From positions 868,001 through 932,000 of the forward strand of contig JAADJZ010000008.1 in NCBI GenBank assembly GCA_011032825.1: a stretch of 64,000 nucleotides of DNA, given 5' to 3'. Source of the DNA: Massariosphaeria phaeospora (Eukaryota; Ascomycota; Dothideomycetes; Pleosporales). Position 1 is the first letter of the stretch; each line of letters starts with the position of its first letter. The notes beneath the pieces are model-generated. The model was not told the DNA's origin. It was given only the letters and a program-made list of their open reading frames with translations, and did no database searches. The position numbers and the translations under genes were made by a program. Below are positions 56,996 through 63,828 of this stretch, piece by piece.

Positions 56996-58216
56996 TTTGT
57001 CGTTGTAGGTGCGTAGGTGGGAGAATCTTCTAGCAAAACCCAGCCGGCTGAATTGAATTGTAAGATTTTGTCTATTCGACTAGAGATAGTGATAATCGAG
57101 TAGAAGCAGTAGTGTAGAAGTAACATTTGAAAGGTAAGTATTCTTTATACTGTCTGTGTTTGTGGAAAAATGATGATAGGAATGCTAAGAACAGGAGGCT
57201 TAAGTTTCATGGCTTTGAGTCATGACATCTTGTGTAAGTGAGCCTGCGGGTATACCGGTGATGCTCGGTAGTGTAACATCTGCAAGCAGCTACAGTCCAG
57301 GCTAAGCGCCGCCGCCACCGCCCAGCTTATTACAGGAAAGCCTGCCTTCCCTTCAATGCCTTTTGATGTATGTGCCTGTGAAGAACTGAAGGCTCAAGTT
57401 TCATGGCTTTGAGTCATAACGTTTTGTGTAAGTGAGGCTGCGGGTGTACCGGTGATGCTCGGTAATGTAACAACTGCAATCAGCTACACTCTAGGTTAAG
57501 CGCGCCCGTTGGTTTGATCGTTGGATGCCCGTTCGTATTGCTCCATCGTGAAGGCGGCCCCCGCTGGGCAGTATCCGAGTGTTGGAATCATGAGAGATAT
57601 TTTGTGTGCGTGTGTGTGTGTGTGAAGAGATGAGGGGGGCGAGAGAAGCGAAGACTTTATCAGTCATCTTAGTCAGTGCAAACGACGAACCATGGTTCCG
57701 AGAGTGCGGCTCCACAAAATGGCCACCCATTCAGATTCCGCGGAATACCAATGAGGCTTTTTTTGAGCATTCGCGCAAACTTTTATCCTAGTTTAAGCGC
57801 CACCGCCGCTAGGTAACTCTGCCTTCCCTTCAACGCCTTTTACACAGGATGCATATGCCTGTGAAGAACCGAAGGCTAAGGATTTATAGCTTTAAGTTAT
57901 AACATCATTTTGTGTAAGTGAATCGGTGATGCTCGGTAACATGAAACATATAGCGTGGTGTGCGGCATGTCGCACTAGCAAGAGAGTCAGTCATACCATT
58001 TCTCAGCTGTGGCTAACAGAGCTGACATTTACAACAAGAAGATCGTCATGCTGCCGCTGTCATTAAAGCACATGTACTGGTCAATCAATAGCTTTTCACG
58101 GCAACGAGTTATCAATGAAGAAAAACAAAAAGCTTTTGACATCTTTCCAACTCTCTTTCGAAAACCAAACTTCCTCATATCTTACTTCGAACTAGAACTA
58201 CTGCTTGTAGTACTCC
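56996..58216. promoter_or_regulatory. Bidirectional promoter region with three diverged repeats
   Basis: 1.2 kb between the A-T-R enzyme and amine oxidase genes, which read away from it. It carries three copies of a repeat that share GGTGATGCTCGGTA (57257, 57451, 57925). It also has a GTGTGTGTGTG run at about 57602-57624. No supported gene; the 60-103-codon frames conflict with the repeats. Confidence 0.55.
57190..57950 (+). repeat. Three copies of a promoter repeat (~190 bp unit)
   Basis: Copies at about 57190-57310, 57335-57505 and 57790-57945. Shared blocks in order: AAGCGCC(R)CCGCC, CTGCCTTCCCTTCAAYGCC, TGCCTGTGAAGAAC-GAAGGCT, GGCTTTGAGTCATAAC, TTGTGTAAGTGA, CGGTGATGCTCGGTA. Copies 1 and 2 are 194 bp apart; copy 3 is 474 bp further on and more diverged. 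All have the same orientation. Confidence 0.8.
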
Positions 58217-59737
58217 ATGGGCAATTCGAAACTGCAGATCGGCATAGTAGGTGGAGGTGCATCTGGTATCTACTCCGCCCTACTCCTTCAACGAGAAGGC
58301 CACTCAGTTACCTTGTTTGAGGCCACCGAGCGGCTTGGTGGGCGGATCTATACGCATCACTTTCAACCACAAACACCCAATGAGGATCCTCTGTTCGAAG
58401 TTGGAGCAATGCGTCTGCCAGATTCGTCAAGACATGAAATTGTATTCGATTTTGTGAACTACCTCAACACGCATCAAGGCAGACAAGACAAAATCAATCT
58501 TATACCTTTTGTTATGTCCCACGAGAACAACATAACGTTTGTGGACGGCAAGCAGAGGAGTTATACTGGAACGCACCTCGAGTCTAATGTTGGCCTCCCG
58601 AAAGAGTTCCAAGGCATCTCCGCTCAGAAGTTGTTGGAAGGAATTATCTTACCGTGGACAGCGATTTTGGAAGGCGATTTTGAATCAGGGTTCCGGGCTG
58701 TACTTGAGTATGATGGGTGGTCTTTCCGCACATACCTCAACTCGGTCGAAAACTGGCCCCACGAAGTTATCGACTTTGTCGAAATGATTGCAAGTCAAAC
58801 AAATCAGTTCGATCTCAGTTTCACAGAGGTCATTATGCAGTGCTTGGACTTTGGAACACAAGGTTTGTACACTGGCAACCTGTATTCCCTTATATAATTC
58901 TACTAATGGCAAACTACAGAATGGTTTACCGTTCGAGGAGGAATGTCTCGAATGGTTGATACCGCGGCCAGTGTGATCGGAAGTCAACACATTAATCTCA
59001 ACATGCCGATAAAATACATTATGGAACTGGATAATGGCAGAGTCTGCCTCTCGACTGGATGTCCATCCTCTACGAAGTGGGTGTTTGACAAAATAATACT
59101 CGCAATACTAGCTTCTAGCCTACAGAGTGTACTCGAACGTCCTCGATGGGACATGAAGAAAGAACAAGCAATACGAAGCACATACTTTGAGCCTCTCTAT
59201 AAGATGGGTCTTCACTTCAAAGTGCGCTTTTGGGAACACGGCAAGAAGCCTATATTTGGCGGCCAAAGCGTAACAGACCTTCGCATCCGGCGAATCATCT
59301 ACCCATCCACCGACCTAGGGTCTCGAGGCTCTGGAGTCTTGATTTTATATGCATGGATGACTGATGCAGCTCGTTGGTATGCGTTATCAAGTCAGGAACG
59401 CATCGATGTGGCACTCTACGAACTCGGAAAAATTCACACCAAAGCAGACTGTGGATTTGATGTAACGGAGTGTTTTATCGAGGCGCTCGACATGAACTGG
59501 GCTGGACATTCCTCAACCGGTGGCTGCATGTACCTTCCCGGACAATTCTCGAGATTTCATGAAGTCATGGGGAGGCCCGAAGGCCCGATATTCTTTGCGG
59601 GAGAACGCCTCAGCAAGCATCATGCTTGGATTGCAGGTGCAATGGACTCGGCATATAATACGGTGCGAGAGGTGTTAGGATGTCGGGATATACACACACT
59701 CGGGATGTTGACAGGAAATGTTAAAGCCATGTTGTAG
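58217..59737 (+). CDS. Flavin-containing amine / L-amino-acid oxidase
   Basis: An FAD enzyme that oxidises an amine or amino acid to an imine with release of H2O2. Two exons, 58217-58862 and 58920-59737, 57-nt intron (GTTTGT donor, CTACTAATG branch, CTACAG acceptor); 487 aa. Marks: QIGIVGGGASGIYSALLLQ (dinucleotide fold), FEATERLGGRIYTH (GGR motif), FEVGAMRLP, EWFTVRGGMSRMVD across the splice, and the C-terminal FAD loop FFAGERLSKHHAWIAGAMDSA. No signal peptide. It shares a promoter region with the A-T-R enzyme; together they could make and oxidise an amino-aldehyde or amino-alcohol product, but the substrate is unknown. Confidence 0.9.
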
Positions 59738-60047: not shown

Positions 60048-60890
60048 ATGGCGCTCAAAACCTACCTTCTGGCTCCGAACTTCACACTGGAACCCGACGG
60101 TCCCATTCGCATTGGCAGAGTCATAATCGACCCGTTCCGCCCAACCAAACCACTCCACATCCCAACCTCTGAACCGGCCATAGCAACTCACGTGGACTTC
60201 GACAGCTCCCACTCACGCAACACCAGCCATTCCTTGCATGGAAGCGTGTTCGCCCAATTTCTTCAGGTCGCGAGCGCCAACGTCGGTGCCGGAGTCAGCA
60301 AAGACGTCCTCACTCAGTATACTATGGACAGTCTAGAGACTCAGCGTATTAAAGAGGATCCTACCGACTTCGACGCAGCCGAACTAGTCAAGCATCCTCC
60401 GGTTCAGGCTGCTATCAACTCAGGAGTCTTGGGCTCGGCGCCAGTGTACATGATTACCGGTATCAAGATCGCGAAAGGCTTCGGTTTGAGCACGCAGGTG
60501 GTACGCACGCGGGAAGTACAGAGTGGAGGGAGCGGTACAGTGACAGGAGACATTGCTGTAGGCGCCGATGTAGGGGCTTCGCGTACAAAAGGGGCAGAAG
60601 ACGCGTTTCGGTCTGGGAGTGATATCATATTTGCGTACCAGCTCCATGCTATTGCGTATAAGAAGTGGTGGCGCAAGAAATTGACAGTTGTTGTTTACGC
60701 TCCGTCGTCGGCGTTCCTGAGTGACGACGCCGAAGCCGTGGAGGATGAAGCCGCGGTCGGGGACGTTACACCTGACCATGTGCTCGCTATAGCGGAAGAG
60801 AATGAGGATGACTCGGTCAAAGCTGTGGATGGCTTAGATGGAGATTCGAAATGTGTCTGTATCGCCTTCAAGGACAGTGACGACGAATAA
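60048..60890 (+). CDS. Putative gasdermin-like cell-death protein (het-Q1/rcd-1 type)
   Basis: Intronless, 280 aa, with no signal peptide, membrane helix or enzyme motif. Seen directly: an N-terminal Pro-containing segment (LAPNFTLEPDGPIRIG), two amphipathic beta-rich stretches (APVYMITGIKIAKGFGLSTQ, 131-150; RKKLTVVVYAPSSAFL, 209-224), a Gly/Ser-rich linker (157-176) and a strongly acidic C-terminal tail (225-280). Known: fungal gasdermin-like proteins are about 250-280 aa, act as membrane pore formers after a short C-terminal tail is cut off, and are often encoded beside a protease gene. Inferred: the size, tail and tail-to-tail pairing with a subtilisin gene fit this class. The family call rests on context and layout, not on a profile match, and it may be a different NLR-associated fungal effector. 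Confidence 0.5.
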   Translation: MALKTYLLAPNFTLEPDGPIRIGRVIIDPFRPTKPLHIPTSEPAIATHVDFDSSHSRNTSHSLHGSVFAQFLQVASANVGAGVSKDVLTQYTMDSLETQRIKEDPTDFDAAELVKHPPVQAAINSGVLGSAPVYMITGIKIAKGFGLSTQVVRTREVQSGGSGTVTGDIAVGADVGASRTKGAEDAFRSGSDIIFAYQLHAIAYKKWWRKKLTVVVYAPSSAFLSDDAEAVEDEAAVGDVTPDHVLAIAEENEDDSVKAVDGLDGDSKCVCIAFKDSDDE

Positions 60891-60913
60891 GGCAATCTGG
60901 TTGAAAGAAGGAT

Positions 60914-63828
60914 TCACCCTCTCCTAGCCTCCCGTGAACTCACCAGCAGCAATGCATCGCGCATGCTGTCATCGTTCCGAAGAAATTCATCTGCAGAGAG
61001 ATAGTATATCTTTTCTCCCATTTTCCTGGATAGTTTTAGAAGCATCGAACGCATTCCGCGCTCTGTCCATAGTGAAATAAGACTTGGGTGTAATGGTGCA
61101 TACCCTTCGATACGCAAACGTGCATATCCTAGAGTAGTTGCTGCGATTCCGGCCGCAATAGGAGTAGCGATAGAGGTTCCGGTGCTGCACAGCTCTCCAG
61201 ACTCGTGGCAAAGGGATGCTCCAGGTACGTCTTTCCCCAGTGTGCCGAATACGTCTACTCCGGCAAAGTCTGGTGGAGGGTTCAGAGGTAAAAACGTCCC
61301 CTGGTGATCGGTTCCTCGGATTGAGAAGACAGAACTATGTTGGGCGGGGAACATCTCGAGCTGGTTGCCGCCATCGTTCGCAGCAGCAGCGAAGAACAGG
61401 ATCCGTTGGTTTCTGCTGGATAGCGCTTGTGCGATGGCATTGCTGATTACCTTTGTGTCGTCTACTTCAATCTCCTCGGAGAAGCCGAATGACATTGATA
61501 TGATGTCTGCTTCGGCGGTCTCTGCTGCCCATTTTATTGCCTATCCGCTGTTAACTTCTCAGGCGCCAGCGCGAGATATAGATATGCTTACCTTGGCAAT
61601 ACTTTGACTAGCTTTCCCTAGATCAGCCGAGCTGGTTGCCACTCGTGCAACGCAGATGTCTGCAGCTGGTGCCATTTTCATTGCAAGAGAAACTACATGT
61701 GTGCCGTGCCCGTCGTTATCGAGAGGTTGAGCGCTCCCCCCCACAAAATCTTCCCACATACAAAGTCGATTGGACCTTGGTTTTGGATAAAAGAACGAAG
61801 ATTTCCTATCGTACCCCGTGTCAAGAACAGCAATGCGAATCCGTCGAAGTTGGGGATTATTGCGATATCGTTGTGCCAGGTTCAGAGTTCCAGTGTTCAT
61901 AGTCCAATCCAACCACTCTTTGGAAGATTTAGGTAGGCTTCAAGCGCTGTTTAGGCTTACTAGTCACAAGCAGGACTGGTAAGTACTCACCTCGTTTTCT
62001 GATTGCCAGACAAAAGTGTGGTGTGGAGCAGGTTCTGCGGCTCAGTTTTGGGTAGAGCATAATCCAAAAGCTCCACCATATCTGGCTGGTTGATGATACC
62101 CATCTCGGCACACAGTTGCTCCAACGGAAATATTACTCTTTTGTACAGTATGTCTCGCCGTATCTGAACATCATTTTCCCTTGAGTTCTTCTGATGAGGG
62201 ACATGGAAAAGCTTAGGATCCAGACAACTTTGGGCAGCGGCTCTGTATTTGTTGCGTATTTCTTCGTTTCTGACGTCCAAACCGGGCCAATTTGTACTTT
62301 TGGCCACCTCTTGGTAGGTGGTAAAGTCTGTATTCAATTGCGCGTCCGAATATGCTGCACCGTGAGTTTGCCTTGGCTTTGTGAGGCAGATCTCTACAAG
62401 CATTATACCGAGGGCGAGTATGCGAGGGTATCGATGGAGCACACTGTAACTCTGGCAATGTTCTGAGTACTCGTTTTGCCCTGTTTCTGGGGCCGCAAAA
62501 GCAAAGAAGGGGCTTGACGGATCGATTTTTTCTTGGTCCATGTCTCCATCGGGATTAAGTCGATACTCTCGCATGAAATGTATGGTTTCGGTTGCCCAGT
62601 GCATACGCATAAAATCAGAGTCGTAGTAGCGCCAGACTGATTTGGCAAGGATGTATGCCAGTAGTATCCTGCCCTTTGAGGATATGTTTTTGCGCTGTAA
62701 GACTTGCGATAGGGATATACTTGGAGCTTCAACAACACGTCTGTCGGGTGCATCTGCCTGGAATAGTTGATGAAGGCATCCGTCAACAATTCTCAGCCGA
62801 ATACAAACGTTCCCCAGGGACCTGCCGAGGAGGTCACAAAAATGACCTGCCTCGATTACTTTAGTAATTTCTTCCTCCTCATTGTAATTAGGCTCTAATA
62901 ATTCCTGGTCCGCAAAATGTATCTGTCTTTTCCGTCTAAGCCGTAGCTAGTTAGCACGGGGCAATTGTACTTTGGGGGAATCGGGCCATACCTTGGGACT
63001 TCGAATCGTAACTGCTGCCACTTCACCAATACCTCGGGAGGCGGGGTTGCAGGTGTTGTCGAAAACACCATATCAAAGAATATATCTTCCTGGGTGGAAC
63101 GGGCTTTGTCCACCAGACGGAGCCTTGTCCAGTGCCTCTGAACTGAACAAGATCCAGAATCATCTAACAAGCATGTGCAATTGGAGTGTTGTAGTAACGT
63201 CTTGTACAGGAGCTCGTTCGTCTGCGGAGGGTATTCGACAGGGGGCATAATTTGATCGATCTGCCACCTGTCAACGCTAGTTTGGGTCTGTACCAGTTCC
63301 GCAACCACCCGTTTTGTGCCCACAAATTTTTCAAGATTAGACATGAACTTCCCAAGACGTGACCCTCCAGAAGCAGCAAATTCTGATAGTGATGACTGAA
63401 AACCCATGCGGATCTGGGGAGATGGCTGGAGAAGTGCTTGGAGGATAGGAAATGGCACAACTCCATCGTTATGAGTTGCGTAGAGACCGCTTGCTTGAGG
63501 ATTGACAGGCCACTAAGCACCTATCAGTCCAAGGCATTGATAACTGAGATGCCGTTTTGGATATACGAACCGTGCAGACTGCTTCTAGCTGACCAAGGAA
63601 CCTCGGAAGGCGCCTGGATATTACTTCCAAATTGCATGATCGCGGGTCTTCTAGTGTAAATCGGACCTCGATCAGTCTGGCTGCAAGGACTCCGAGATTG
63701 AGAATCCTGATTCTATCCAGCTTTTGCTGTCCACGCGCCGTCGGGTTTGTCCTCACAGCGTCCGCAGCAACGCCGGCCAGGTTACCGGTAACGATGATGG
63801 CCAAGTTCCATAGCTCCTGATTATCCAT
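60914..63828 (-). CDS. DUF7580-subtilisin (S8) protease, het-Q2-like
   Basis: Five exons: 63828-63571, 63512-62992, 62935-61991, 61937-61592 and 61540-60914 (introns 51-58 nt); 898 aa. Residues 1-570 form the fungal DUF7580-type helical domain, with ISSKGRILLAYILAKSVWRY, DFMRMHWATETIHFMREY, ALGIMLVEICL and IFPLEQLC. The C-terminal S8 domain has the full triad: Asp614 in IAVLDTGYD, His652 in DNDGHGTHV and Ser813 in GTSIATPIAAG; the oxyanion Asn is in AAANDGGNQ. No signal peptide or propeptide is seen, so it is cytosolic. Known: such DUF7580-S8 proteins are intracellular, allorecognition-type proteases, and HET-Q2 cleaves and activates a fungal gasdermin. Inferred: it acts on the product of the convergent neighbour, whose stop lies 23 bp away. 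Confidence 0.9.

Follow-up and report, generated by a model that had tools for sequence, protein, structure and literature searches.

The locus lies within the window, by which we mean the whole 64,000-nucleotide stretch analysed here (C50:868001-932000, on contig C50 of 1,652,558 bp in the 42.1 Mb assembly of Massariosphaeria phaeospora, a species for which no paper by name appeared among the literature matches listed). Two genes stand there tail to tail: an intronless gene for a 280-aa protein at 60048-60890 on the forward strand, with its stop codon at 60888-60890, and a gene for an 898-aa protein at 60914-63828 on the reverse strand. An earlier note on this DNA had described the genes as convergent, with stops 23 bp apart, and the spacer computed from both gene ends is indeed 23 bp long (60891-60913). 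Further features of the window are a flavin amine oxidase gene at 58217-59737 (forward strand, two frames, with a probable intron near 58900) and, ahead of it, diverged repeats at 57171-57940, where 194 bp separate two copies and an incomplete third one lies about 0.48 kb further on.

The 280-codon open reading frame is not a chance one, since it has 59 relatives (at E <= 1e-3 the search lists 60 proteins, of which one is that of the window). Pfam names no family for the protein at E values up to 10, and its identity was therefore sought by profile and by fold. As a single sequence it matches RCD-1-1 at E 7.3e-4; as a profile it matches RCD-1-1 at 7.3e-16 and HET-Q1 (9uv9) at 7.6e-7, RCD-1-1 and RCD-1-2 being the best profile matches among solved structures. 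A gasdermin-type fold had been named beforehand as the check on this protein, and structure comparison also found a gasdermin N-domain fold, with RCD-1 the best match by fold as by sequence; the HET-Q1 entry 9uv9 was absent among the fold matches listed, an absence that by itself carries no weight. With sequence homology to RCD-1 and HET-Q1 and the N-domain fold both found, the 280-aa protein is a fungal gasdermin, with its pore-forming domain at about residues 1-224. Searches of IMG/VR contigs with the gasdermin and with DUF7580, the domain of the neighbouring protein described below, confirmed no relative.

The acidic tail that the earlier note had seen is plain from the charge count: residues 226-280, about 55 aa, hold 20 Asp/Glu and carry a net charge of -17, and we presume that this C-terminal tail (residues 225-280, at 60720-60887 on the forward strand) is inhibitory. 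Among 58 aligned rows, window included, the tail reaches at least 20 aa in all except P0057, and it is net negative in 57 of those 57, with a median of -12. At its boundary lies a candidate cut site, SAFL (residues 221-224; 60708-60719, forward strand), which is picked out by conservation: Leu stands at 224 in 56 of the 58 rows, and 55 of the 58 have F, L, M or Y at 223. In the gasdermin model the last strand of the core (211-216) comes ahead of SAFL, residues 227-239 shortly after it have pLDDT under 50, and the rest of the tail is modelled with a helix and a hairpin. HET-Q2 is described as trimming about 5 kDa off HET-Q1 at F238 of 278 (PMC10989679), so size and place agree with the window tail; the match to the HET-Q1 PDB chain ends at 211, HET-Q1 is not alignable across the tail, and no placement of its F238 on the window gasdermin was obtained. 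We infer that the motif serves as the cut site. Against this, a motif at a tail boundary could be kept for folding and not for cleavage, and its full form, [AS]A[FLMY]L, occurs in only 41 of the 58 rows (the looser [ASGT][AGT][FLMY]L in 51).

The second gene is read in five exons (63828-63571, 63512-62992, 62935-61991, 61937-61592 and 61540-60914) separated by four GT-AG introns of 58, 56, 53 and 51 nt, the stop codon reaching 60914. P0061, the public M. phaeospora version of the protein, has 757 aa and starts at residue 143 of our model, to which it is identical from there on except at the intron-2 junction. We prefer the 898-aa model, because it covers a Mariannaea relative from end to end, and that relative also matches the first exon and keeps 'VPR' after the same residues; judged on these alignments it is probably better than the public version. 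Near its C-terminus the protein carries a subtilase (S8) domain (residues 608-827; 61130-61840, reverse strand, spanning intron 4; Pfam Peptidase_S8, E 1.2e-17). The intact triad claimed for it is in place, as Asp614, His652 and Ser813, together with Asn745. His652, Asn745 and Ser813 align with identical residues of subtilisin BPN', and Asp614, within VLDTG, occupies the Asp position, at which the engineered BPN' chain compared has Gly; we take these aligned Asp, His, Asn and Ser residues to have the catalytic roles usual in S8 enzymes.

Ahead of the protease domain Pfam finds DUF7580 (PF24476; residues 189-535; 62110-63206, reverse strand, spanning intron 2) at E 4.3e-26, with 92.8 bits against a gathering cut-off of 27, so that the earlier description of a DUF7580-S8 protease stands in both its domains. 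The model of a homologue, P0085, gives kinase matches of moderate score for the DUF7580 region, and by way of this model the region appears to have a protein kinase-like fold; MLKL was absent among the fold matches listed, which again carries no weight by itself. In the same model N-terminal helices at 6-176, barely covered by the fold comparison, precede the kinase-like domain, and the N-terminal helical part has no Pfam match, to HeLo or a four-helix bundle (4HB) as to any other family. In the stretch taken to follow helix E, none of 11 aligned relatives has the HRD motif of active kinases. In literature searches of partial coverage DUF7580 was not met by name.

Several DUF7580 relatives show features of their own. 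P0067 (901 aa, from a 2,911-bp contig) is related to the sensor part, at 40% identity over 62% of the query, and has a PNP_UDP phosphorylase domain at its end where the window protein has S8, which looks like an exchange of the output domain. The last 30 residues of P0085, which has DUF7580 and no S8, hold a short Gly/Asn-rich motif that to us recalls fungal amyloid signalling motifs. Four DUF7580 genes of M. phaeospora itself (L013, L007, L012 and L045) share a hydrophobic start, MSG-E-AG--LG--P, possibly a membrane-targeting helix, which the window protease lacks.

Within the M. phaeospora genome three queries led to the same three gasdermin places (C50, C51 and C29) and to no others, these and the other place counts for the genome being lower bounds. 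All three adjoin an S8 place, for which the chance is about 2e-8 under random placement. At C51 a gasdermin gene (L028:334-1212, forward strand) is convergent with a DUF7580-S8 gene on the reverse strand, with 44 bp between the stops; at C29 the gasdermin comes after same-strand frames with TPR-like repeats (below Pfam cut-offs) and with S8 (L026, L002; about 89.7-93.2 kb), which presumably form one TPR-S8 gene. Seen from the protease side, 27 S8 match places merge into 22 loci, of which three are beside a gasdermin and 19 are without one that the three queries find; in ten S8 loci taken with 1.5-kb flanks (L014-L023), a gasdermin was found by profile in one (L018, at C29). The C51 gasdermin is 31% identical to that of the window over 221 columns, and in a gasdermin tree built from 55 of the 60 proteins (P0023, P0036, P0043, P0046 and P0057 being dropped as short), the gasdermin half of P0062 (below) and the two paralogues, both paralogues fall outside the window's group; to judge by their sequences, the gasdermin paralogues are old.

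For other genomes we compared by eye the contig sizes and locus tags of the 60 gasdermins with those of 52 protease-side proteins (P0061-P0112, not all of which carry both DUF7580 and S8). In Fusarium falciforme the gasdermin relative and the DUF7580 relative are FALCPG4_007814 and _007813, on a contig of 4,333,058 bp, and these tags are the only ones that show adjacency directly; the neighbour, P0070, is annotated with DUF7580 and without an S8 domain. From equal contig sizes the two relatives probably share a contig in Mariannaea sp. PMI_226 (2,552,786 bp) and in Trichoderma chlorosporum (1,241,771 bp), as P0015 and P0094 probably do (11,677 bp). The remaining listed proteins gave no pairing match, which is not evidence of absence, as the gasdermin list holds close relatives only. 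In Trichoglossum hirsutum, P0062 is a single predicted protein of 888 aa in which a partial DUF7580 and S8 are followed by a complete gasdermin, the two parts showing 68% and 70% identity with the pair in the window. This could be a genuine fusion, or gene prediction may have run two neighbouring genes together; in both cases the parts lie next to each other there, in the same direction. A link of the gasdermin family to S8 genes, on which the earlier note's reading depended, is thus found both in this genome and elsewhere. Trichoglossum belongs to a different class from M. phaeospora, and horizontal transfer was considered for the 70% identity; we do not claim it, as the tree leaves the node open.

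For fungal gasdermin-linked proteases, Clave et al. in 2022 reportedly described 18 architectures. About 1900 gasdermins have been counted in 400 fungal genomes, about 80% of them clustered with a protease gene, mostly S8 (PMC10197012). The window pair is a further case of this known pairing; the new member that the earlier note had expected is one in its gasdermin identity, and is of a kind already known. That note had also likened the layout to het-Q1/het-Q2 pairs, which according to the review in PMC12881547 are idiomorphs, that is, different genes at one locus, and not tail to tail. What the layout fits is the commoner gasdermin/Q2-like cluster of two genes, in which a short-tailed gasdermin stands beside a multidomain S8 protease (PMC10197012; PMC12881547), and the window protease is HET-Q2-like in being an S8 protein with catalytic residues whose gene is clustered with a gasdermin. 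The window pair differs from such clusters in that its sensor part is DUF7580 and not TPR, ANK or WD40 repeats, and in that a divergently oriented C2H2-like gene neighbours each of the two DUF7580-S8 loci of this genome. The review also mentions protease domains joined to 'other predicted kinase-like domains' (PMC12881547). The kinase-like sensor part and the possible third gene look less familiar. With MLKL and fungal HeLo/HELL-kinase proteins the window protein may share N-terminal helices followed by a kinase-like domain (as in the P0085 model), and one DUF7580 match of this genome, C34:771527, lies behind a HeLo domain; in contrast to those proteins, the output of the window system is a protease. 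Bacterial gasdermin-protease defence loci differ in consisting of bacterial genes, and the sequence match to them is far weaker than that to RCD-1.

We propose that the pair is, very probably, a compact pyroptosis-like death switch in which the gasdermin is activated by the neighbouring protease. The gasdermin would be made as an inactive 280-aa protein, held in check by the acidic tail at its C-terminus. The protein encoded beside it would be both its sensor and its activator, with the N-terminal helical region and the DUF7580 kinase-like domain restraining the C-terminal subtilase until a trigger arrives. The subtilase would then cut the gasdermin at or near Phe223-Leu224, removing about 56 residues, and the freed N-terminal domain would enter the plasma membrane as a beta-barrel ring. 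This would kill the hyphal compartment, either as a defence or when it has fused with an incompatible partner. Cleavage, pore formation and compartment death are proposed because of what is reviewed for HET-Q1/HET-Q2 and RCD-1. Several observations weigh against this explanation: RCD-1 is described as cleavage-free, so that proteolysis is not obligatory for the family (PMC12881547); 19 of the 22 S8 loci have no adjoining gasdermin that we found; and the F. falciforme neighbour is annotated without S8.

The alternatives concern what the pair is for, and how the gasdermin fires. The genetically described fungal gasdermins are of the allorecognition kind (PMC10989679; PMC12881547), and by analogy the window pair could be a heterokaryon incompatibility locus, with some strains holding one gene only or incompatible versions. 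In Podospora anserina, HET-Q1/HET-Q2 likewise combine a gasdermin with an S8 protease, and HET-Q1 has 278 aa against 280 here, whereas HET-Q2 has 388 aa against 898 for the window protease (PMC10989679). Unlike the het-Q1/het-Q2 idiomorphs, however, both window genes occur together in a single genome with their frames open, and we regard this reading as unlikely. Less probable still is a gasdermin that works as RCD-1 of Neurospora crassa does, activated by a divergent allele without cleavage, with the protease either uninvolved or serving to degrade the gasdermin. RCD-1-1 and RCD-1-2, its best solved-structure profile matches, do work in this way; RCD-1 is activated by two alleles (PMC12881547), whereas the window gasdermin has a linked protease gene, and both the acidity of every tail of at least 20 aa and the repeated protease linkage, in other genomes and at all three gasdermin places found here, argue against a cleavage-free mode. 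That the genes are chance neighbours, the DUF7580-S8 protein having some unrelated substrate, is very improbable: 13 of 15 DUF7580 places have no S8 place within 10 kb (C50 and C51 being the two that do) and all six DUF7580 frames outside gasdermin loci that were tested as proteins match no S8, but the pairing is repeated in this genome and elsewhere, and P0062 is predicted as a fused form.

Beside the proposed protease-activated switch, just beyond the end of the window and upstream of the protease, lies a C2H2-zinc-finger-like gene, which comprises at least one frame and is divergent from the protease gene (at about 1215-5809 of L024, which is G000:C50:931000-940900; its match place is C50:933533). 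A similar gene neighbours the C51 module (BLASTP E 9e-12 in a single comparison, with 28% identity over 125 columns of the zinc-finger part), and a comparison of the two genes over another part gave no similarity. Pfam finds no family in these regions at C50 and C51; the C2H2-like label comes from a copy at C15, which has weak zinc-finger matches below the Pfam cut-off, and from Cys/His spacing read by eye. With the C50 region as query the genome yields 10 places, itself included, each 2.0-4.5 kb from a DUF7580 place, on its 5′ side and divergent from it. The C15 copy finds the same 10 and an eleventh, C45:755789, whose contig has no DUF7580 place; the C51 query finds six, all among the 10; and the N-terminal parts of two C2H2-like genes find four and eight, all at the same loci. 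The flanks of the other five DUF7580 places hold two more such partners (C28, C48), which were sought only beside DUF7580 places and are biased by design. A head-to-head C2H2-like partner is thus present at 12 of the 15 DUF7580 places of this genome, the exceptions being C13, C35 and C34:771527, the last a partial DUF7580 match about 0.8 kb behind the HeLo domain and on the same strand. With C50 and C51 left out as the starting observation, the genome-wide search gives 8 of 13, for which the chance is about 2e-18 under random placement (3e-22 with the two counted), jointly copied pairs not being independent. Literature searches by title or opening, of partial coverage, met no published pairing of C2H2, kinase-like and gasdermin genes.

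Such a recurring partner raises the tentative suggestion of a three-gene immune circuit, made up of the C2H2-like protein, a DUF7580 pseudokinase sensor-protease and the gasdermin, in which DUF7580 would act as an MLKL-like sensor with swappable outputs; we think this somewhat less probable than its being otherwise. If it is so, the outputs of DUF7580 would range from none, through the PNP_UDP phosphorylase domain of P0067, to an S8 domain that fires a gasdermin, and a necroptosis-type scaffold would be joined to a pyroptosis-type executioner. A 2025 review (PMC12881547) counts among the major open questions what kind of stimulus sets off the sensors in pyroptosis-like pathways of fungi. For that question the locus is a compact, testable unit, with a predicted cut site, a protease with catalytic residues and a kinase-like domain, and it further offers a third gene that recurs and a close relative whose two parts are predicted to form a single protein. 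Should the C2H2-like partner be part of the circuit, it could hint at what such sensors watch.
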